From the NCBI RefSeq assembly GCF_039545095.1, contig NZ_BAABRS010000001.1:1488001-1552000 (forward strand): a stretch of DNA of 64,000 nt, read 5' to 3'. The notes below the pieces were generated by a model, which saw nothing but the letters and a program-made list of their open reading frames with translations, made no database searches and was not told the origin of the DNA. The translations under genes were made by a program, and so were the position numbers. Below are positions 20,450 through 31,740 of this stretch, piece after piece. The DNA is from Fodinibius salicampi (GTDB lineage Bacteria; Bacteroidota; Rhodothermia; Balneolales; Balneolaceae). Each line of letters starts with the position of its first letter. The first letter of the stretch is position 1.

Positions 20450-20806
20450 TTATCCTGTAGTCTCAATTACATACGATAACATCTCTGTAATTTGGGGGTT
20501 CTTGAATCCACTAAACTTGTAGACATCACAAAATGCAAACGCTTTATCTTCACCCGGTATCTTCATAATACCGTTGACGGAGGCTTCTTTCCCATGGGTT
20601 ATGATATGGTGGATTGTTAGCTCCATGGGTTTCTCCGTCTCCATCTCTTTTAATGCCCTGGTAAATGCCTTCTTGCCTTCTATCGTTTGATCGCCGACAA
20701 TTTGCCACCGAATAGTGTCTGTAACATGGTCGGCAATAAAATCCGTATCGCTGCGGGCAAAGGCTTGGTTCAATTCCTCTAAAAATTCCTGATTCTTTGT
20801 TTTCAT
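20450..20806 (-). CDS. SnoaL-like / NTF2-fold protein
   Basis: 118 residues with the SnoaL-like pattern: an N-terminal helix LEELNQAFARSDTDFIADHVTDTIRWQIVGDQTIEGKKAF broken by short loops, then curved sheet segments ending YVIETTG. Members of this cone-shaped NTF2 superfamily include isomerases, polyketide cyclases and many unassigned small-molecule binders. No catalytic residues can be named. It is last in line with the minus-strand genes from 24034 downward but separated from them by about 300 bases, so cotranscription is uncertain. Confidence 0.72.
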   Translation of the reverse strand: MKTKNQEFLEELNQAFARSDTDFIADHVTDTIRWQIVGDQTIEGKKAFTRALKEMETEKPMELTIHHIITHGKEASVNGIMKIPGEDKAFAFCDVYKFSGFKNPQITEMLSYVIETTG

Positions 20807-21110: not shown

Positions 21111-21548
21111 TTATTCCTCCGCCAATCTCTTCAATTTCTCCAGGGCTTTCGGCCACATATCTAGGAACATCTCTTCGTGCTCTTCTTCGATGTCCATGTC
21201 GACGGCTACCGTTGTTCTTCCATTTTCCTCAGTAAAAATGTAATTTTCAAATGCGGGCGCCCACTTTTGGGCTTCCTCGCTCTCGGTATCTTCTACACCG
21301 TCCTGTATGATGCCAATATGCTTGATGGAAATAAATTCATGCGGCCGGTTCTCCGCGATAGTAGATACCATGCCCTGACCGTTTGCGTCAAGGAAAAGAA
21401 TCTTTTCTCCTTCCTCCCAGCTTCCCTCAAAATGCGAGCCTTCGGTAAAAGCCATAGTCCACTGCCGGTAGGTTTTGTCTTCAAGCATCGTACTCCAGAC
21501 CTTTTCTTTCGGTGCGTTGATCGTTTTTGAAAAATGCAGTGTTATCAT
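21111..21548 (-). CDS. SRPBCC / AHSA1-like domain protein
   Basis: 145 residues fitting the START-like helix-grip fold. It opens ITLHFSKTINAPKEKVWSTMLEDKTYRQWTMAF, with the family's INAPxExVWxxM signature, and ends MWPKALEKLKRLAEE. These proteins bind hydrophobic ligands in a central cavity; the substrate of this subgroup is unknown. It lies 20 bp after a two-domain VOC protein and appears to belong to the operon starting at 24034. Confidence 0.82.
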   Translation of the reverse strand: MITLHFSKTINAPKEKVWSTMLEDKTYRQWTMAFTEGSHFEGSWEEGEKILFLDANGQGMVSTIAENRPHEFISIKHIGIIQDGVEDTESEEAQKWAPAFENYIFTEENGRTTVAVDMDIEEEHEEMFLDMWPKALEKLKRLAEE

Positions 21549-21568: not shown

Positions 21569-22501
21569 TTACTTGTTTCCTTCAAACGCTTCCCGCAGCT
21601 TTTGGATGTCAAACTTTTTCATCTGCAGAAAAGCATTCGTTACGCGTTCTACTTTTTCGGAATCCGAATCGTTCAGCATTTCGAAAAGTTGGGTTGGTGC
21701 TACCTGCCAAAAAACTCCGAACTTATCTTTCAGCCAGCCGCACTGCTCGGCCGCAGGTACGGCTGACAAACTCCAAAAGTGATCAATTTCTTCCTGAGTA
21801 TCGCACTGGATAAGCAACGATACGGCCTCATTAAACGTAAAACCAGCATGCTCTGGAGAGCTGTCCATGACCATAAACACCTCTCCATCGTTCAGGCGAA
21901 ACTGGGCGTGCATAACGCTGCCCTCCGGCTGATCTTCACCCGGACCATAGCGCAATATTCCGGTGATGTCCGAATCATCGAAAAGTGAAGTATAGAGATT
22001 TACCGCTTCCTCGGCCTGACCTTCTTCATCAACAAACATCAGGGAGGGAACAATTTTTTGTCCGTGCACATCTTTCAGATTGCCGAGGGAAATCTGCCAG
22101 GTGAGTCCGTACTGGTCCTGTACCCAGCCGTATTTTTCACTCCATTCATATTTATCGAGCGGCATCATTGGAGAGCCGCCTTCAGATAGCTTCTGCCAAA
22201 TTTTTTCTACTTCCTCCTCTGTTTTACAGGTCACATAGAAAGAAATGGCCGGGGTAAAACTGAAGTGTGGTCCGCCGTTGAGGGCGATCATTTTATAGCC
22301 TGCAAGATCAAAATCCACCGTCATTACGGTCCCAGCTTTCTGGCCATGAAATTCCTTTCCGGCTTCTCCGTATCGGGAGACACTTCCGATTGTTGAATCC
22401 TCAAAAAGCGAGGTATAAAAATTAACGGCTTCTTCGGCCTTATCATCGAACCACAGATGTGGTATAATTTTTTGAGTATGCTCTTTATTTTCGTTTGACA
22501 T
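21569..22501 (-). CDS. Tandem VOC (PhnB-like) protein
   Basis: 310 residues from the ATG at 22501, which has GGAGAG nine bases upstream; an in-frame ATG five codons earlier overlaps that site and is less likely. Two PhnB-like VOC modules follow each other: about 10-145 (KIIPHLWFDDKAEEAVNFYT, ending DQYGLTWQIS) and about 150-280 (KIVPSLMFVDEEGQAEEAVN, ending DKFGVFWQVA). A C-terminal helix MKKFDIQKLREAFEGN completes it. The VOC superfamily includes glyoxalases and resistance proteins; the metal-ligand set of true glyoxalases is not evident, so the activity is unknown. Confidence 0.82.
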   Translation of the reverse strand: MSNENKEHTQKIIPHLWFDDKAEEAVNFYTSLFEDSTIGSVSRYGEAGKEFHGQKAGTVMTVDFDLAGYKMIALNGGPHFSFTPAISFYVTCKTEEEVEKIWQKLSEGGSPMMPLDKYEWSEKYGWVQDQYGLTWQISLGNLKDVHGQKIVPSLMFVDEEGQAEEAVNLYTSLFDDSDITGILRYGPGEDQPEGSVMHAQFRLNDGEVFMVMDSSPEHAGFTFNEAVSLLIQCDTQEEIDHFWSLSAVPAAEQCGWLKDKFGVFWQVAPTQLFEMLNDSDSEKVERVTNAFLQMKKFDIQKLREAFEGNK

Positions 22502-22562
22502 AATATCTCTCTCCATCTTTTTATTTTCTTTTAATTTTTAGTGAAGTGTCCATTATTAATTT

Positions 22563-22964
22563 TTACTTTCCATTATAGAATACATTCCATTTATGGCCGT
22601 CAAGGTCTGCAAAACCACAGCCATACCATTTTTCCATAATTGCCTGGGGTTCACTGAATACAGTACCGCCCGCCTTTTTAACTGCTTCCGCCCATTCATC
22701 AACTTCTTCTTTACTATCAGCCGAAAGGGTGAACATTACTTCATTACCTTGGTCTAAATCGGCTATTTCACCATCGATACTCCACTTAAATCTTTTCTCC
22801 TCAAAAAAGTGAACCACAAAGTCATCCTGCCCGACTAAAAAACTGGCCAGCCCATTTTCTTTGGAAAATTCTCCATTGGGCCTAAATCCCAACTTTGTAT
22901 AGAACACGTGGGTTTGTTCAAGATCTTTTACCGATAAATTTGCCCAGACCAGCTTTGTTTTCAT
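22563..22964 (-). CDS. VOC family protein
   Basis: 133 residues from ATG at 22964, preceded by AAGAGAAAGAAA as a weak ribosome site; a longer in-frame start 14 codons upstream gives a Lys-rich tail absent from relatives. One VOC module: KLVWANLSVKDLEQTHVFYT at the start, EVMFTLSADSKEEVDEWAEAV in the middle, and GFADLDGHKWNVFY at the end. It is the third gene of the operon from 24034. The ligand is unknown. Confidence 0.8.
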   Translation of the reverse strand: MKTKLVWANLSVKDLEQTHVFYTKLGFRPNGEFSKENGLASFLVGQDDFVVHFFEEKRFKWSIDGEIADLDQGNEVMFTLSADSKEEVDEWAEAVKKAGGTVFSEPQAIMEKWYGCGFADLDGHKWNVFYNGK

Positions 22965-22989: not shown

Positions 22990-23403
22990 TTATTGTTTTT
23001 TATCAAAGTTTAGCATCCATACCTTACCAAACTTATCTTGTACAACTCCGAACAAGGCACCCCATGATTTTTCTCCTAAAGGATCAATGATGTTTCCTTC
23101 CCTGGAAAGTGTGGAAAAGCACCTGTCTATTTCTTCTTCGTGATCAAAGTTTAGAGAAATCGCCATATCATTCCCTGTGATGAATTCATCCGCCTGAGTC
23201 ATATCCGTTGCCATTAACAAAAAGTCGCCATTGACAAGACTTGAATGCATAATCTGATCTTGCATGCCCGCCGGACATTGGTCAGCAATAGGTGTTTCAG
23301 CAATGGTTTGCAAAGTTAGTTCACCACCGAAACAATCCCGGTAGAATGTCATGGCTTCGCGGCAGTTGCCGTCAAATGTCAAATACGGATTTGCTTGTAT
23401 CAT
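22990..23403 (-). CDS. PhnB-like VOC family protein
   Basis: 137 residues with the PhnB-like pattern: NPYLTFDGNCREAMTFYRDC at the start and GVVQDKFGKVWMLNFDKK at the end. PhnB-like proteins have the glyoxalase/bleomycin-resistance fold but usually lack the metal site, and their role is unknown. It is the second gene in the operon from 24034, 31 bp after the reductase-like gene. Confidence 0.82.
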   Translation of the reverse strand: MIQANPYLTFDGNCREAMTFYRDCFGGELTLQTIAETPIADQCPAGMQDQIMHSSLVNGDFLLMATDMTQADEFITGNDMAISLNFDHEEEIDRCFSTLSREGNIIDPLGEKSWGALFGVVQDKFGKVWMLNFDKKQ

Positions 23404-23434: not shown

Positions 23435-24034
23435 TTATGAAAAAGAGCCGAGCTTGATCTCACCGTCTCTTTTGTAAGAAGCAATTATTACACCGCTTGG
23501 TGACGACTTTGATTCGATTAGTTTGAAGGCGGCGGGAATGGTCCCCTTGCCAAATAACTGCTTGCCTTTCCCCAGCGTAATAGGAAATATTTTTAACCAC
23601 AGTTCATCGACTAAATCATTTGCCAATAAAGTTTGTACAAAGTTACCGCTGCCATATACCTGTAAATCGGGCCCATCCCCTGCTTTTAGCTCTTTTATTT
23701 CCTCTACGACATTACCCTCCAATTGAATCGAGTTCTCCCAGGTGAATTCCATGGGTTCGTGTGAGGCTACATATTTAGTTGCTTCGTTGATGCCCGGCCA
23801 TTCATCAGCATGCTCGGGCCAGTAAGAAGCGAATATTTCGTAGGTAACTCTGCCAAGAAGTAAATCAAACGGCTTACTCATCTGTTTATTCATGACATTG
23901 CCTAATAATTTATCAAAGTAGGGCACCGTCCATCCTTCAAGATCAAAACCACCGGAGGGATCTTCTCCTTCTCCTCCGGGTGCCTGAATAACGCCATCAA
24001 GTGATATAAATGTTAAAACTACCAGCTTTCTCAT
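23435..24034 (-). CDS. Dihydrofolate reductase-family (RibD C-terminal-like) protein
   Basis: 199 residues of the DHFR/RibD reductase fold. RKLVVLTFISLDGVIQAPGG at the start binds the pteridine/nicotinamide region in true DHFR, LLLGRVTYEIFASYWP follows, and GSGNFVQTLLANDLVDELWL and PITLGKGKQLF mark the C-terminal part. These proteins (often annotated YwjB/YyaP-like) probably bind NADPH, but the substrate is unknown. It is first in an operon with three VOC genes and an SRPBCC gene. The promoter region carries the 44 bp element at 24108. Confidence 0.84.
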   Translation of the reverse strand: MRKLVVLTFISLDGVIQAPGGEGEDPSGGFDLEGWTVPYFDKLLGNVMNKQMSKPFDLLLGRVTYEIFASYWPEHADEWPGINEATKYVASHEPMEFTWENSIQLEGNVVEEIKELKAGDGPDLQVYGSGNFVQTLLANDLVDELWLKIFPITLGKGKQLFGKGTIPAAFKLIESKSSPSGVIIASYKRDGEIKLGSFS

Positions 24035-24107
24035 GATTTTAATGTTTTACTTAGGTGTTCCCTTAATTTAATTTCTGATAGTAATATAGTATCTAAATAA
24101 ACAGGGT

Positions 24108-24151
24108 GCGTGGTGTTAATACGCCATTCTTACCGGTTGAATGCGACAAAC
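24108..24151 (-). promoter_or_regulatory. Candidate operator, shared with 26998-27041
   Basis: A 44-base element, 37/44 identical to 26998-27041 and in the same orientation. It contains the dyad TGGTGT-N4-ACGCCA and a conserved GGTTGA.TGCGACAAAC tail. It lies 74 bases upstream of the reductase-like gene at 24034, nearly the same distance as the second copy lies from its gene. It is likely bound by the GlxA-like regulator at 27134 (inference). Confidence 0.6.
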
Positions 24152-24189
24152 CATTCTTGTAGATGGTGATCTGAATACAAAATGTAGTC

Positions 24190-24447
24190 TTAAATTAATC
24201 GATCACTCCGGAACCCAAGATTTGATACTTTTTTATCTATCAGCTTTGCTTCGAAATGGGGATGACATTCAATGCGCAATACATTATCCCGATCATCCAA
24301 ATCTATATCCACCTGGTAAACATTATCTAGTTCCATAAGTTCTTTCTTTGTCTGCTCTACTTTGATCGGTGTATTTATGTTTGAACTAAATACCAGCACT
24401 TTCAGATTCTCCGAAATAATATTATTTCCCTTCACAGATTGTTGCAT
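24190..24447 (-). CDS. Small HMA-like (heavy-metal-associated fold) protein without CxxC
   Basis: 85 residues from the ATG at 24447. The core LKVLVFSSNINTPIKVEQTKKELMELDNVYQVDIDLDDRDNVLRIECHPH follows the beta-alpha-beta-beta order and spacing of HMA domains (split here only for description), but the metal-binding CxxC is replaced by SSNIN. It is therefore unlikely to carry copper. An in-frame ATG at 24486 is closer to the 16 bp dyad at 24491 and would leave no leader, so 24447 is preferred. It is probably controlled through that dyad by the WYL regulator at 39682. Confidence 0.6.
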   Translation of the reverse strand: MQQSVKGNNIISENLKVLVFSSNINTPIKVEQTKKELMELDNVYQVDIDLDDRDNVLRIECHPHFEAKLIDKKVSNLGFRSDRLI

Positions 24448-24490
24448 TTTTTTATAATAATTTGCTTTTCCTGAGTATAGCAGCAAGTAT

Positions 24491-24506
24491 TGACAACCCT
24501 ATGTCA
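24491..24506. promoter_or_regulatory. 16 bp dyad operator, copy 1 (candidate WYL-regulator site)
   Basis: TGACAACCCTATGTCA, with inverted TGACA/TGTCA arms. It is identical over all 16 bases to 39637-39652. It lies 44 bases before the ATG of the HMA-like gene at 24447. The second copy is next to the WYL-domain regulator gene, which makes that protein the obvious candidate binder. Confidence 0.6.
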
Positions 24507-24665
24507 CAGTTTCTCTAATAAATTGAACTATATAGATATGTTTTTACCCTATAATCAGTACTTGTAACTACAATTAATTTTATAAATGCGACATGAATTA
24601 ATGCTCTTGGAATAGTTTTACACTTGTGGAATGATTCCAAGTATGCTCATTATGCTTTGCTCTTC

Positions 24666-25442
24666 TTAGTCCTCATCATATTCATCCGGATAACGAATTT
24701 TATCACTACCCGCCTGGGCACCAAGCCCGGTGGCACGCCCTTTGGGCTCTTCCCATTCTTCTTGTCGGCCGAGGGCAGTCATATCCAGAAAATAATAGGC
24801 CCCACCCACCTGTTCTCCTCCGCGTCCATACGTGGAATAGGTGTGATAAACGATATCATCTACCTGCAAAAAACAACTTATGCCCGGTTGTTCACCTTCA
24901 GTGTGATAATGCTGCCCGAGATGTTCCAGTGTGGCTTTATCGCGATAGTTATAGATTATCGGTCTGACGGATTCATCCTGGGTTACATGAAAATCATAAT
25001 TGAAATCGCTGCCGTACGAAGAATACCACGGTATCTTCCAGCCCATTCTTTCCTTAAAAGCGGTAATTTTATCCAGCGGGGCGCGTGAAACCAAGGCTAA
25101 TGTGGTAGAACGAGCGTGCAAGTGGTTAAGATGCCCTCTTGCAATGTGATCCGCCCAGGCCGAACAGCTTGGGCATCCCTCGTCCCAATCCGGATCAAAC
25201 ATAAAATGATACACGATAAGCTGCATACGGTCTTTAAAAAGATCGAATAGTGTTTTCTTCCCGTCCGGACTTTCAAACTCGTAGTCTTTTTTAATCTCTA
25301 CCATCGACAGGCGGCGGCGTTCGGCATTTAGCTGATCCCGTGCCCGCGTGAGTTTCTTCTCCCTTTTGAGTAGCTTTTTACGTTCTTTCAACCACTCTTC
25401 CCGTGAGACCACTTCGGGTAATGTTATTTCTGTTTCCATCAT
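24666..25442 (-). CDS. DUF899 thioredoxin-fold protein
   Basis: 258 residues, full-length for DUF899. The N-terminus (TLPEVVSREEWLKERKKLLK) and the sequence MFDPDWDEGCPSCSAWADHI, which holds a CxxC-type pair in a thioredoxin-like context, are typical. Relatives are annotated as predicted dithiol-disulfide oxidoreductases, but no reaction is established. It is last in the minus-strand group 26928-24666 (DinB, two VOC, DUF899), with gaps of 34-78 bp between genes. Confidence 0.85.
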   Translation of the reverse strand: MMETEITLPEVVSREEWLKERKKLLKREKKLTRARDQLNAERRRLSMVEIKKDYEFESPDGKKTLFDLFKDRMQLIVYHFMFDPDWDEGCPSCSAWADHIARGHLNHLHARSTTLALVSRAPLDKITAFKERMGWKIPWYSSYGSDFNYDFHVTQDESVRPIIYNYRDKATLEHLGQHYHTEGEQPGISCFLQVDDIVYHTYSTYGRGGEQVGGAYYFLDMTALGRQEEWEEPKGRATGLGAQAGSDKIRYPDEYDED

Positions 25443-25520
25443 AATACCTCTTTTGTTGATTTATTAGACTTTTAAAACCTGGAAAGCCTCAAAATCTCCA
25501 GGTTTTAAGTTTTCGAACTC

Positions 25521-25952
25521 CTAGGCAAAATCCACATCTCCGGTATAGTTAACCATCCACTGGATACCAAATTTATCGGTAAGTGCACCATACCTTTCGG
25601 CCCACTCAGTTTCCACTAGTGGTATCTGAATTTTCCCACCATCTGAAAGCTTATTAAACAATTCTTCGGCTTCATCAGCACTGTCGACCTCAAGGGTAAT
25701 GGAAAAATTATTACCGATTGTGAGCTTCTGGTCCATTGAGTCCAGTACATCCGTTCCCATCAATACAGTACCTCCAGTAAGAGGGAGCACGATATTTGCG
25801 ATCTTATCCAGGTCTTCCCCTGTGGCTCCCATATTGTCAGCCATGTCTTTGAATCGCGTTATTTGAAGCTCTCCGCTAAAAATAGATTGATAAAACTCAA
25901 AAGCTTCTTCGCAGTTTCCGTTAAAGTTGAGGTAGGGATTTACAGATTTCAT
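25521..25952 (-). CDS. PhnB-like VOC family protein
   Basis: 143 residues. NPYLNFNGNCEEAFEFYQSI at the N-terminus and RYGALTDKFGIQWMVNY at the C-terminus are the standard PhnB-like ends. It resembles the protein at 22990 in layout but is a distinct paralogue. No glyoxalase metal ligands can be identified with confidence. Third gene in the operon starting at 26928. Confidence 0.83.
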   Translation of the reverse strand: MKSVNPYLNFNGNCEEAFEFYQSIFSGELQITRFKDMADNMGATGEDLDKIANIVLPLTGGTVLMGTDVLDSMDQKLTIGNNFSITLEVDSADEAEELFNKLSDGGKIQIPLVETEWAERYGALTDKFGIQWMVNYTGDVDFA

Positions 25953-25986
25953 AACTAATTAGTTGTTAGCAGTTAATAATTATTTT

Positions 25987-26400
25987 TTACTCTTGATCAT
26001 TTTCAACTGCCTCCATATCCATCCACAGCACTTCCCAGATATGTCCATCGGGATCACTAAAGCTTCGGCTGTACATAAACCCGAGATCCTGGGTTTCTCC
26101 GGCTTCCTTCCCACCGTTATTCAAGGCTTTATCAACGAATTCATCAACCATCTCTTTGCTTTGGGTACTCAAGGCATTGAGCACTTCCGTGGTTTCATGG
26201 GCATCCGCTATCTTCTTTGATGTAAACTGTTTAGCCTTCTCATGTGTTAGTAACATCACATAAATAGTGTCAGAAATCACCACACAAGCTGCAGTTTCAT
26301 CGGTGAATTGGGGATTGATAGAAAAACCAAGCTGCTTATAGAAGGTCTTTGATATTTCGAGGTTTTTAACCGGAAGATTTACAAAAATTTGAGTATCCAT
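25987..26400 (-). CDS. VOC family protein (glyoxalase-like)
   Basis: 137 residues, one VOC module: QIFVNLPVKNLEISKTFYKQ at the start, then TKKIADAHETTEVLNALST-like middle helices, and MYSRSFSDPDGHIWEVLWMD at the end, where the ExxW region matches the metal-ligand Glu of related lactoylglutathione-lyase-like proteins. It is second in the operon from 26928. The substrate is unknown. Confidence 0.83.
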   Translation of the reverse strand: MDTQIFVNLPVKNLEISKTFYKQLGFSINPQFTDETAACVVISDTIYVMLLTHEKAKQFTSKKIADAHETTEVLNALSTQSKEMVDEFVDKALNNGGKEAGETQDLGFMYSRSFSDPDGHIWEVLWMDMEAVENDQE

Positions 26401-26439
26401 AATATTCGGGTTTTGTTTTTTTATTTATTGATTAATGAT

Positions 26440-26928
26440 TTAGTCAAAACTCATGGGCGGCTTTCCAAAAGCTCGCCGCAAAATTCCAATCTGACCAATA
26501 TGATAGGATGTATGATGATTGATAAAAGCCCAGAGCTCTCCAACAGTTTCTGCTACTTGATTGAAAGGTGTCGGTGGCACTTGATTGAGTATTTCTGGGG
26601 TTAACTCTTTCAATCCGTCGCGGGTGGGTTCATACAACTGATTCCACTCAGATTTGATCTCTTTGATATCAGGATATTCAATATCATCTTTAGCCTCTGA
26701 ATGTCCCATTACGGCAAAAAGATCGTTCCATTTTAACTGCGGATCTAAGCCAGCAATCATCGCCAGTCCGTATTGCGAATTCAGCAGATGTCCGGCCAAG
26801 TATTTTACATGATTTATTTTTTGGTCACCATAAAGCCGTTGATTGGTTTCTTCATCCGTAAAACCGTCCAGCACGTTATTATATAACCGCTGGTGCAGGT
26901 CAAATTGAGTTAATAAGGCGTTATTCAT
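26440..26928 (-). CDS. DinB-family protein
   Basis: 162 residues forming a four-helix DinB/YfiT-type bundle. The three metal-binding histidines are placed as in the family: NHVKYLAGHLLNSQYG near residue 40, and HHTSYHIGQIGILRR near residue 140. Some members are thiol-dependent S-transferases, but most are uncharacterised. It is the first gene of a four-gene minus-strand operon. The 44 bp element at 26998 lies 70 bases upstream, and the GlxA-like regulator is divergent. Confidence 0.83.
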   Translation of the reverse strand: MNNALLTQFDLHQRLYNNVLDGFTDEETNQRLYGDQKINHVKYLAGHLLNSQYGLAMIAGLDPQLKWNDLFAVMGHSEAKDDIEYPDIKEIKSEWNQLYEPTRDGLKELTPEILNQVPPTPFNQVAETVGELWAFINHHTSYHIGQIGILRRAFGKPPMSFD

Positions 26929-26997
26929 AATCCCTTTCTGCTTTCTCTATCAGTTTATTTGTTCTGTAAATAAGTATAATTGTAAAACAGCTCCCCT

Positions 26998-27041
26998 GCG
27001 TGGTGTATTTACGCCATTTTCACAGGTTGATTGCGACAAAC
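26998..27041. promoter_or_regulatory. Candidate operator between dinB-like gene and glxA-like regulator
   Basis: Second copy of the 44-base element seen at 24108-24151 (37/44 identical), again with TGGTGT-N4-ACGCCA and the TTGATTGCGACAAAC tail. It sits 70 bases before the DinB gene (26928) and 93 before the regulator gene (27134), a position suited to control of one or both. Confidence 0.6.
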
Positions 27042-27133
27042 TCTTTTAGTAGCATTAATTGTTAGTTGTTCGTTATCGATAGCATAAACAGTAATAACGA
27101 ATAGCCGCTACCTTTTAATTAATTGCCTTTATC

Positions 27134-28117
27134 ATGAAACATATATCCATACTCATACCGCGCGGACATACCAGTGTGGTCAATATTGGCGGAACCCATC
27201 AAATTTTTAACCAAGTCAATGGAATACTCGCCGAAAAGGGAAAAAATCCGGTTTTTGATATTCATCTTGTGGGGCTTGAAAAAGAAATAAGGCAGTCAAC
27301 AGGACTCTTTGCCGTGAATGCGGACTGCCTGGTTGGGGATGTCGATAAAACAGATCTGATCATTATTCCTGCAATACACGACGACCCACGTCAAGGAATT
27401 GAAGAAAACAAAGACTTTATCCCCTGGATTGTAGATCAATATAAAGCGGGCGCGGAAGTAGCCAGCTTATGTGTCGGAGCTTTTTTTCTAGCGGCTACAG
27501 GTCTGCTGAACGGTAAACAATGCGCTACACACTGGATGCATGCTGACAACTTCAGAAAAATGTATCCTGAGGTTGATGTTGTAGATGAGAAGATTATGAC
27601 CGAAGAAGACGGCATTTATACCAGTGGAGGCGCCTATGCTTTTACAAATCTGTTGCTGCATATTATAGAAAAATATGCCGGACGTGAAGCGGCTATCTTG
27701 GCTTCCAAAGCATTCTCACTTGATATTGACCGTGACAGTCAGTCCGCATTTATCATATTTGAGGGCCAAAAAGATCATGAAGATGAAAAGATTATACAGG
27801 CACAAAAGTATATCGAAAGTCACTATGAGGATGATATCAAGGTCAACCAGCTGGCCGAGGAATTAGCTATGAGTCGACGGACCCTTGAACGACGATTTAA
27901 AAAGGCAACTCATAATACGGTGACCGAATATAAGCAGCGCGTAAAAGTGGAAGCCGCAAAAAAAGACTTAGAAACTACCCGTAAGAATATTTCAGAAGTT
28001 ATGTATGATGTCGGTTACTCAGATACTAAGTCTTTCCGCAATTTGTTTAAAAGAATAACCGGACTCACTCCTATTGAATACCGGGATAAGTATAACAAAG
28101 AAGCAGTTGCTGTATAA
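27134..28117 (+). CDS. GlxA-family transcriptional regulator (DJ-1/PfpI + AraC)
   Basis: 327 residues. Residues 1-190 form a DJ-1/PfpI-like domain with the nucleophile-elbow cysteine in SLCVGAFFLA (C113). Residues 220-320 are an AraC-type double helix-turn-helix (INVNQLAEELAMSRRTLERRF-like first helix, then VGYSDTKSFRNLFKRITG and PIEYR). Such regulators sense small metabolites and usually activate divergent genes. It is divergent from the DinB-VOC-VOC-DUF899 operon, with a 44 bp candidate operator between, and may also control the operon at 24034. Confidence 0.87.
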   Translation: MKHISILIPRGHTSVVNIGGTHQIFNQVNGILAEKGKNPVFDIHLVGLEKEIRQSTGLFAVNADCLVGDVDKTDLIIIPAIHDDPRQGIEENKDFIPWIVDQYKAGAEVASLCVGAFFLAATGLLNGKQCATHWMHADNFRKMYPEVDVVDEKIMTEEDGIYTSGGAYAFTNLLLHIIEKYAGREAAILASKAFSLDIDRDSQSAFIIFEGQKDHEDEKIIQAQKYIESHYEDDIKVNQLAEELAMSRRTLERRFKKATHNTVTEYKQRVKVEAAKKDLETTRKNISEVMYDVGYSDTKSFRNLFKRITGLTPIEYRDKYNKEAVAV

Positions 28118-30729: not shown

Positions 30730-30911
30730 TTATTCATCTTTAAAAAAGACCCGGTTCTCAGGATTCATACGCTCGCCGGACCCGCAATCAATCGTCCATA
30801 GATTTTAAGTTTACGATTGCCTGCTAATGCAACGTTTCCATTTTTGACAAACTTTCGGATTTCTATTTTCCGCTTGTTTTCAGTGGTACCTAGCTCGGTG
30901 TGCCTAATCAT
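30730..30911 (-). pseudogene. Ada-type zinc-binding (sunset-domain) small protein, frameshifted
   Basis: The ATG at 30911 overlaps the end of the ada/ogt gene by eight bases. The frame reads MIRHTELGTTENKRKIEIRK and on to NRKLKIYGRLIAGPASV, then stops. Shifting one base after KIYGRLI restores the family consensus: CGSGERMNPENRVFFKDE, as in small Ada metal-binding proteins (KIYGxLxCxSGKRM...ENRVFF). A T lost from ATTTGC would explain both the frameshift and the missing first cysteine. The usual GFRPCGHC end is also absent because of a stop at 30732. Confidence 0.6.
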
Positions 30912-31740
30912 TTTTTACATCCGTAATCTGTGACGCTTCCCATCCTATGATAGCCTGCTTTCGAATATCGCCCCATCGGTATTTCCCAATACCTCCCACC
31001 TTTCGAATTACCCGATGGCAAGGAATCAGGTACGCAATAGGATTATTAGCCAATGCGGTACCAACAGCACGGGAAGCTTTGGGATTCTCAATTGCTTCTG
31101 CTACATCGGAGTATGAAACCAGCTGACCAACAGGAATTTTCAAAAGAGCCTCCCACACTTTCAGCTGGAATTCAGTTCCTCGAATATGCAATTTAACTTC
31201 ATCCAAATCCTGCCAGTCATTTGCTAAGATCTCTTCCAGATCTTGGATATGCTTATCTTTGCTTTGGGTAACATTGGCATTCGCCCAGCTTTTTCTGATA
31301 ATTTCCTCTCCTCCCTCTTCGTCTTCTATAAAACTCAAATTACAAATACCTTTACCGGTAGAGGCTATCAACATTTTACCAAATGGACTTTTACTGAAAT
31401 CATATCGAATATTTAGGTTATCACCTCTCTTTTTATATTCGCCGGGTGTCATCCCTTCAATATTGACAAAAAGGTCATGTAGTCTGCTGGTACTCGAAAG
31501 CCCGGTATGAAAGGTAGCTTCTTCGATAGACTCATTCTTTTTTAACAGTTCTTTGGCATAATTCAAACTAATATATTGCAGGAATTCTTTAGGAGTCACC
31601 CCTGCCCACTCTTTAAACATCCGGTGAAAATGATATGGACTGAGATGCACTGCCTTAGCAATAGCATCCAGATTGGGCTGCTCAACGGAATGTTCTTTAA
31701 TGTAAGTGATGGCTTTGGCCACTCGCTGGTAGTCTGTCAT
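30904..31740 (-). CDS. ada: Bifunctional AraC-type regulator / methylated-DNA--cysteine methyltransferase (Ada-like)
   Basis: 278 residues. An AraC helix-turn-helix domain (about 5-103) is joined to an O6-methylguanine-DNA methyltransferase domain (about 110-268). The active-site motif is PCHRV with acceptor Cys241, and the DNA-binding helix SRAVGTALANNP is intact. It repairs O6-methylguanine in one irreversible step. Compared with E. coli Ada it lacks the N-terminal zinc domain that senses methylphosphotriesters. A separate small zinc-domain gene follows directly but is broken. It converges with the alkA pseudogene. Confidence 0.92.
   Translation of the reverse strand: MTDYQRVAKAITYIKEHSVEQPNLDAIAKAVHLSPYHFHRMFKEWAGVTPKEFLQYISLNYAKELLKKNESIEEATFHTGLSSTSRLHDLFVNIEGMTPGEYKKRGDNLNIRYDFSKSPFGKMLIASTGKGICNLSFIEDEEGGEEIIRKSWANANVTQSKDKHIQDLEEILANDWQDLDEVKLHIRGTEFQLKVWEALLKIPVGQLVSYSDVAEAIENPKASRAVGTALANNPIAYLIPCHRVIRKVGGIGKYRWGDIRKQAIIGWEASQITDVKND

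Follow-up and report, generated by a model that had tools for sequence, protein, structure and literature searches.

A direct-repeat site upstream of two operons and of a DJ-1/PfpI-AraC regulator gene in Fodinibius salicampi: a candidate regulon found in related bacteria

At the araBAD promoter AraC occupies two direct half-sites, the proximal of which abuts the -35 box, and the regulator gene is divergent, its promoter being occluded. Regulators of the GATR subfamily combine a DJ-1/PfpI domain with an AraC-type helix-turn-helix (HTH) domain, as do CdhR and GbdR of P. aeruginosa, together with the related SouR and ArgR; CdhR is described as recognizing two GGTCGC half-sites separated by a 15-bp spacer, within a 34-bp footprint (PMC5806209). 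For SphR of the same species, the reported site is a pair of 15-bp half-sites, TGNCCSNNRNNSNCC, in direct orientation and 6-8 bp apart (PMC3900636). Here we describe a 44-bp element occurring twice in a stretch of 64,000 nt of Fodinibius salicampi (hereafter the window; genome size 3.94 Mb), upstream of two minus-strand operons. One of the two copies separates its operon from a divergent gene which encodes a regulator of the GATR type. On the comparisons reported below, it is quite probable that this regulator recognizes the direct repeats of both elements, that it turns on the two operons in the manner of a class II activator, and that its own promoter is under its control at the copy beside its gene.

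The locus shares with AraC and araBAD the direct half-sites, the predicted placement of the proximal one next to the -35 region, and a divergent regulator gene whose promoter is predicted to be occluded, and differs from AraC in having a DJ-1-like sensor domain in place of a cupin, and in showing no sign of DNA looping or of a third half-site farther away. In the case of CdhR, the resemblance extends to a regulator divergent from its target operon, and to a direct-repeat site with half-sites of the TCGC type, whereas the period is 22 bp here and 21 (6 + 15) in CdhR, and a class II position is predicted here in contrast to the class I placement of CdhR (PMC5806209). The targets are also different, VOC, DinB, RibD_C, AHSA1 and DUF899 genes rather than the genes of carnitine or glycine betaine catabolism described for the GATR regulators of P. 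aeruginosa. Like those of the SphR site (PMC3900636), the half-sites are 15 bp long, with 7 bp between them, and share the frame TGNC...CC; SphR has other target genes, responds to sphingosine, and shows a different specificity inside the half-site.

The two copies, at 24108-24151 (copy a) and 26998-27041 (copy b), have the same orientation and agree at 37 of 44 positions. They start 74 bp upstream of the ATG at 24034 and 70 bp upstream of the ATG at 26928, respectively, both on the minus strand. All this had been claimed in an earlier note on this DNA, and is confirmed by direct comparison. Similarity between the copies extends to 56 nt at 80%, and the next best 44-mer anywhere in the window, on both strands, matches either copy at no more than 25 of 44 positions. 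Scanning the whole genome with a 37-nt consensus, and allowing up to 3 mismatches, retrieved copies a and b only, and no control match. Further sites in the genome are not above control, as a looser half-site pattern was found at 5 places (the two window copies and three others), and its reversed control at 6. Abundant copies at non-promoter positions, which the earlier note would have taken as evidence against its proposal, are not seen: the genome hosts two copies, both at promoters.

Read on the operon strand, on which all site positions are counted here, both copies consist of two similar half-sites with a 22-bp period, TGTCGYAWTCAACC-N8-TGKCGTAWTTACACM (that is, TGTCGCAWTCAACC-N8-TGGCGTAWWWACACC). 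In site b, half-site 1, TGTCGCAATCAACCT (27024-27038, minus strand), is distal to the operon, recurs 22 bp on as half-site 2, and is conserved upstream of regulator orthologues; half-site 2, TGGCGTAAATACACC (27002-27016, minus strand), is proximal to the promoter of the DinB operon. In site a, half-site 1 is TGTCGCATTCAACCG (24134-24148, minus strand), and half-site 2 is TGGCGTATTAACACC (24112-24126, minus strand). Two sets of related sites have been compared. The first includes 28 sites, window copy b among them, selected on the regulator plus half-site 1 alone, with no constraint on the second half. The second includes 72 non-redundant sites chosen by pattern from 80 listed loci (L118-L197), in which conservation of the fixed bases is by construction, whereas adjacency and promoter boxes are not. 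TGNCG is found at +22 in all of the 28 regulator-chosen sites. In this set half-site identity peaks at offset 22 with 0.65, and does not exceed 0.35 at the other offsets from 15 to 30; in the 72 sites it is 0.61 at offset 22 against at most 0.34 (offsets 10-33), a contrast partly built in by the pattern. The two window copies score 0.53 and 0.60 at offset 22.

Two observations weigh against a plain 22-bp repeat. The unconstrained positions 7-14 of the 72 sites are identical at 0.40 at offset 22 and at 0.53 at offset 21, and window copy b reaches 0.47 at offset 23, close behind its 0.53 at 22. Since identity at positions 7-14 is higher at 21 than at 22, the TGNCGNA part is best seen as a strict repeat, and the 3' parts as a looser one. 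Judged from the alignments, what is conserved is a direct repeat in the format of AraC-family sites. The earlier note had instead singled out a dyad, TGGTGT-N4-ACGCCA. This pairs at 5 of 6 positions in both window copies, and at no more than 4 of 6 in all of the 72 pattern-chosen sites; 5 of 6 pairs are found in one of the 28 regulator-chosen sites, the set holding copy b. A palindromic operator has been rejected because the inverted-repeat arms are not conserved across related sites, and by the same comparison the dyad of the window copies is incidental. Two 44-mers with a partial dyad might also suggest a mobile or structural repeat, akin to repetitive extragenic palindromic (REP) sequences, or a transcribed RNA element. 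The lack of conservation of the dyad (0/72 sites at 5/6), the position predicted upstream of the start site, and the occurrence of the two copies at promoters already contradict this explanation, to which we give practically no credit; a REP-like or mobile repeat has been rejected on the copy number, two in 3.94 Mb.

The linkage between site and regulator has been monitored in 146 genomes, the window's own included. At a threshold of E <= 1e-60 the regulator was found in 34 of them. When 30 regulator loci were fetched by protein alone, blind to the site, half-site 1 was present at 12 or more of 14 positions in 28; it precedes the regulator start by 20-211 bp, and is oriented away from the regulator. 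L043 (best 8/14) and L048 (11/14) are the exceptions. The site pattern was in turn identified in 33 genomes, with 37 matches (one in 29 genomes, two in each of G000, G011, G022 and G028), against none for the reversed control; a pattern with a spacer shorter by one base gave no match in the 146 genomes. Site and regulator occur together in 29 genomes, the regulator only in 5, the site only in 4, and neither in 108 (Fisher p 3e-21, a value which kinship reduces to a guide). The discordant genomes count against a strict association. The pattern is missing in five regulator-bearing genomes, G004, which has a variant site, G023, G104, G110 and G119, and it is found where the regulator is not matched in G091, G078, G022 and G103. 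The matches in G022 and G103 reside on contigs of 4-8 kb, and in G022 (L101, the same as L169) operon genes lie downstream, while the assembly contains no match to the regulator at E <= 1e-60. The matches in G091 (L103; no box at either place, GC-rich flanks) and G078 (L099; inside an open frame of 357 codons) have been treated as chance. In G018 (L107) the regulator is split into two frames, possibly a pseudogene or an assembly error.

A scan with the exact pattern of one genome per species, covering 84,980 species, yielded 88 stretches, and the results given here rest on the 80 listed. A divergent, adjacent regulator homologue is present at 71 of these. By their titles, and by genus placements that we assume to be correct, 79 belong to Bacteroidota, Ignavibacteria/Chlorobiota, Balneolota or Fibrobacteres; the exception is a metagenome-assembled genome (MAG) of Pyrinomonadaceae. 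Of the nine loci lacking an adjacent regulator, three (L120, L136, L158) are truncated, with 66-193 bases of sequence remaining on the upstream side of the site. The six others are solo sites: the second copy of Fodinibius roseus (L173), MAG UBA4166 (L153), three Chitinophaga sites (L149, L163, L168), and L169. Leaving F. roseus aside, the genomes of the nine loci have been searched, and 7 of 8 encode the regulator, the exception being that of L169; the regulator is thus encoded elsewhere in 4 of the 5 solo-site genomes searched, and F. roseus has it too. For MAG UBA4166, a separate record (L159) contains both site and regulator. The regulon had been described as local in the earlier note. This holds for the genome of F. 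salicampi, which has two sites, and does not hold beyond it, the module being spread over the whole bacterial group.

In a flavobacterium, TAnnTTTG has been identified as the sigma-A -7 box, covering -12 to -5 (PMC9723704). This motif occurs in forward orientation at site position +60 to +67, at the exact offset and with at least 5 of 6 bases, in 51 of the 72 sites, and at +59 in 10; the mean at other offsets is 0.6. Its reverse complement occupies -19 to -12 in 56 of the 72 sites, against a mean of 0.5 elsewhere. If the flavobacterial spacing is applied to the box at +60, operon transcription is predicted to start at +72, near 26966 in operon b and near 24076 in operon a, and the proximal half-site would lie at -50 to -36, the distal one at about -72 to -58. 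The window copies feature predicted -10 boxes at site position +60 to +65, TATACT for operon b (26973-26978, minus strand; same offset as TAnnTTTG in the 51 sites) and TATATT for operon a (24083-24088, minus strand). The place where the -35 would fall is occupied by ACGCAG/ACGCAC. Half-site 2, at +22 to +36, adjoins this place and keeps a fixed distance to the box in 51 of 72 sites and in both window copies, which is the arrangement of AraC class II activation, the starts being predicted. Some data are at odds with such anatomy. Boxes in Balneolales resemble TATAAT and occur in the corresponding places, and are weaker, reaching 4 or more of 6 in 18 of 29 sites forward (+60) and in 19 of 29 reverse (-17), against a background of about 3.6. 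Solo site L169 lacks a box exactly at +60, and the regulator-side copy of F. roseus (L078 9849-10000) has no -10-like box at +60. The L078 contig stops some 150 bases past the beginning of the site, in inverted-repeat-like sequence, possibly an insertion or an assembly break.

On these grounds, each 44-mer would be a two-half-site operator for the regulator encoded at 27134-28117. We infer that the regulator, upon some signal perhaps perceived via Cys113, would bind and recruit RNA polymerase to promoters lacking a good -35 box, and that the two operons would be switched on together. The opposite sign, with the regulator repressing both operons until relieved by an inducer, is much less probable. 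The position at -50 to -36, taken alone, permits occlusion, and in the model given for CdhR, the regulator without its ligand keeps its own gene inhibited (PMC5806209). However, the fixed spacing from repeat to -7/-10 box in 51 of 72 sites, and ACGCAG/ACGCAC at the -35 place, fit an activator-dependent promoter better, and five of the six solo sites retain a box of at least 4/6 at +60.

Activation of the operons would be accompanied at site b by autoregulation. Facing the regulator is a predicted -10-like box, TAGCAT (27050-27055, plus strand), at site position -17 to -12, the same place as the reverse TAnnTTTG of 56 sites. Transcription of the regulator gene is predicted to start at site position -24, and the distal half-site would then cover about -24 to -38 of the regulator promoter; because of this overlap, binding is expected to occlude the promoter. 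Site a lacks both a good regulator-facing box and a regulator beside it, and hence may be an operon-only copy, common to F. roseus. Where flanks are long enough, at the six solo sites, none has the reverse box at 5/6, and the box is 6/6 at the three clipped loci; that L153 and L169 retain 4/6 of it is a point on the other side. Among the 7 Balneolales sites without a neighbouring regulator the reverse box is found in 0/7, the forward one in 4/7. These 7 overlap the listed solo sites (L079 is L173, L101 is L169), include the chance match L103, and comprise L100 and L102, which may be clipped, having 30 and 221 bases of upstream sequence, respectively. As far as these few cases indicate, the regulator-facing box seems to go with the regulator gene. 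The regulator ATG is found exactly at -24 in 21 of the 71 listed loci with an adjacent regulator, at -23 in 5 more, and at -25 in 3. As the ATG coincides with the start predicted from the reverse -7 box, the regulator mRNA is likely leaderless in part of the group. In a flavobacterium, leaderless transcripts have been reported to make up only 5.5% of the mRNAs (PMC9723704).

The sites might be recognized by another AraC-family protein, the neighbouring regulator being a bystander. The hypothesis deserves consideration since ten other genome regions match the regulator, one paralogue and nine matching the HTH part, and we hold it to be improbable. It is opposed by the linkage and co-occurrence of site and regulator throughout the bacterial group, by the regulator-facing box, which occurs next to the regulator rather than at solo sites, and by the paralogue, which is flanked by an altered site. 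The paralogue (L003, C3:554990-555964), 52% identical, is transcribed divergently from a DinB_2 and an ABM gene, and its site reads TGTCTAAATCAAC..[AC]GTCTA. In five paralogue loci the site starts with TGTCTAAATCAACC (G000, G001, G011), TGTCTAAATCAACA (G028) or TGTCCAAATCAACC (G029), and [AC]GTCTA follows 22 bp on; a sixth locus, G007, shows TGTCGAAATCAACC. Two nearly invariant HTH residues, E252 and K256, are replaced by D and I in the five loci, and by D and A in G007. Residue 252 is presumably the counterpart of MarA Gln45, a base-contacting position. The concerted change of HTH and site is confined to a single clade and represents one event, a point to be set against the proposal. The paralogue and its altered direct repeat possibly constitute a parallel small regulon. 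The G007 copy (C3:8522-9409) contains an in-frame TAA, and may be a pseudogene or reflect an assembly error.

A second site located after DUF899 and a small open reading frame (ORF) has been identified, among the 146 genomes, only in the window species and in its congener F. roseus (Balneolota). The downstream genes of the two species differ in the first member, RibD_C in the window and DinB_2 in F. roseus, which is followed in both by VOC, VOC, double VOC and AHSA1. Such a narrow occurrence, along with the 56 nt shared at 80% by the two copies, would suit a duplication of the control region that left site a as a decaying by-product controlling nothing, with site b alone at work. We regard this as unlikely. 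Site a and its F. roseus counterpart are identical at 35 of 37 positions, whereas the flanks agree at 38 of 75 downstream and at 65 of 100 upstream, the latter being partly coding; the corresponding values of copy b are 34/37, 37/75 and 70/100. In addition, site a retains its TATATT box at the right distance, and G028 has a separate second site of matching layout before VOC, SnoaL and RibD_C genes. Sites found away from a regulator mostly precede gene kinds of the window type or DoxX-like genes. As an example, the three Chitinophaga solo sites precede DoxX_2 genes (in L163 with an intervening ORF having no Pfam match), and are candidate targets in trans. One regulator for both operons, the divergent DJ-1/AraC protein, had been suggested in the earlier note; the suggestion gains support from the 28/30 protein-chosen and 71/80 pattern-chosen loci, and from the genes next to the solo sites.

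A homologue of a window operon gene family resides within 4 kb downstream at 47 of the 64 loci having at least 1.5 kb available; that it is only 47 weighs against the proposed regulon. Of the 80 loci, 29 were picked by hand and their operons delimited. These contain 56 ORFs having no homologue in the window, 47 of which were scanned, and 9 left out. Domain matches in those 47 include DoxX_2 (7), Glyoxalase (7), DUF1801 (6), DinB_2 (6) and AHSA1 (5).

The regulator (27134-28117, plus strand), divergent from operon b, contains DJ-1_PfpI (2.5e-14) and HTH_18 (5e-23) Pfam domains in one chain, the architecture of GATR proteins. In an AlphaFold2 model with a mean predicted local distance difference test (pLDDT) score of 88.5, the DJ-1 domain matches 3er6 and isocyanide hydratase structures. 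Many, not all, GATR-type regulators have a cysteine at the nucleophile elbow, and the regulator has it: C113 lies in the model between a strand (108-112) and a helix (115-121), and in isocyanide hydratase its aligned counterpart is the cysteine of SVCTG. Cys113 and His133 are invariant in 64 aligned sequences. The label GlxA-type used in the earlier note is acceptable as domain architecture, and not as an equivalog, since scores are far below the NCBIfam cut-offs, 174 of 425 bits for FtrA and 107 of 480 for GbdR. FtrA (NF006902) is the best NCBIfam match, and overall length and architecture agree; by that model the regulator is not an FtrA orthologue. With a reactive cysteine in the regulator and glyoxalase-fold and DUF899 genes next to it, the protein may be a sensor of reactive compounds.

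Domain searches agree with the reductase/VOC/SRPBCC and DinB/VOC/VOC/DUF899 operons and the divergent DJ-1/AraC gene proposed earlier. Operon b encodes, on the minus strand, a DinB_2 family protein (26440-26928), a VOC (glyoxalase-fold) protein (25987-26400), a VOC/3-dmu-9_3-mt (PhnB-like) protein (25521-25952) and a DUF899 protein (24666-25442). A small ORF of 98 aa with no Pfam match (24190-24486, minus strand) lies just before site a, in the same place as in F. roseus; weaker matches to it occur elsewhere in relatives (L080, L082). Operon a, on the same strand, starts with a RibD_C (dihydrofolate-reductase-like) protein (23435-24034), followed by two VOC proteins (22990-23403 and 22563-22961), a double-domain VOC (3-dmu-9_3-mt) protein (21569-22516) and an AHSA1/SRPBCC protein (21111-21548). 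A SnoaL_2 protein (20450-20806) is possibly the last member, and only possibly so, given a gap of about 300 bp. Elsewhere in the window, 30904-31740 encodes an AraC HTH fused to an O6-alkylguanine methyltransferase. In the same genome, two opposed TGTC-rich repeats (C2:531973-532038; L018/L019) are located between the 3' ends of genes for a P-type ATPase and a zinc-type alcohol dehydrogenase.

A search of open-licence papers returned no description of this site or regulon, and the site strings themselves matched no paper. On the sequence comparisons, this would be a new regulon of a known kind of regulator, the GATR-type AraC proteins. More speculatively, and with rather low confidence, a DJ-1-type cysteine regulator may sense a reactive compound across Bacteroidota, Ignavibacteria and Balneolota, and serve as class II activator of an exchangeable detoxification cassette (VOC, DinB-like, AHSA1, RibD_C, DUF899, SnoaL, DUF1801 and DoxX-like genes), while controlling its own, partly leaderless, gene. 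To our knowledge, few activators with known binding sites have been described in this bacterial group. The analysis offers a concrete operator, a promoter geometry and a regulator for genes which are common and poorly understood (VOC, DinB_2, DUF899, RibD_C, AHSA1, DUF1801). The operator may be exploited to list the members of the regulon in one genome after another, those at solo sites in trans among them, and would thus provide a route to the inducing signal.

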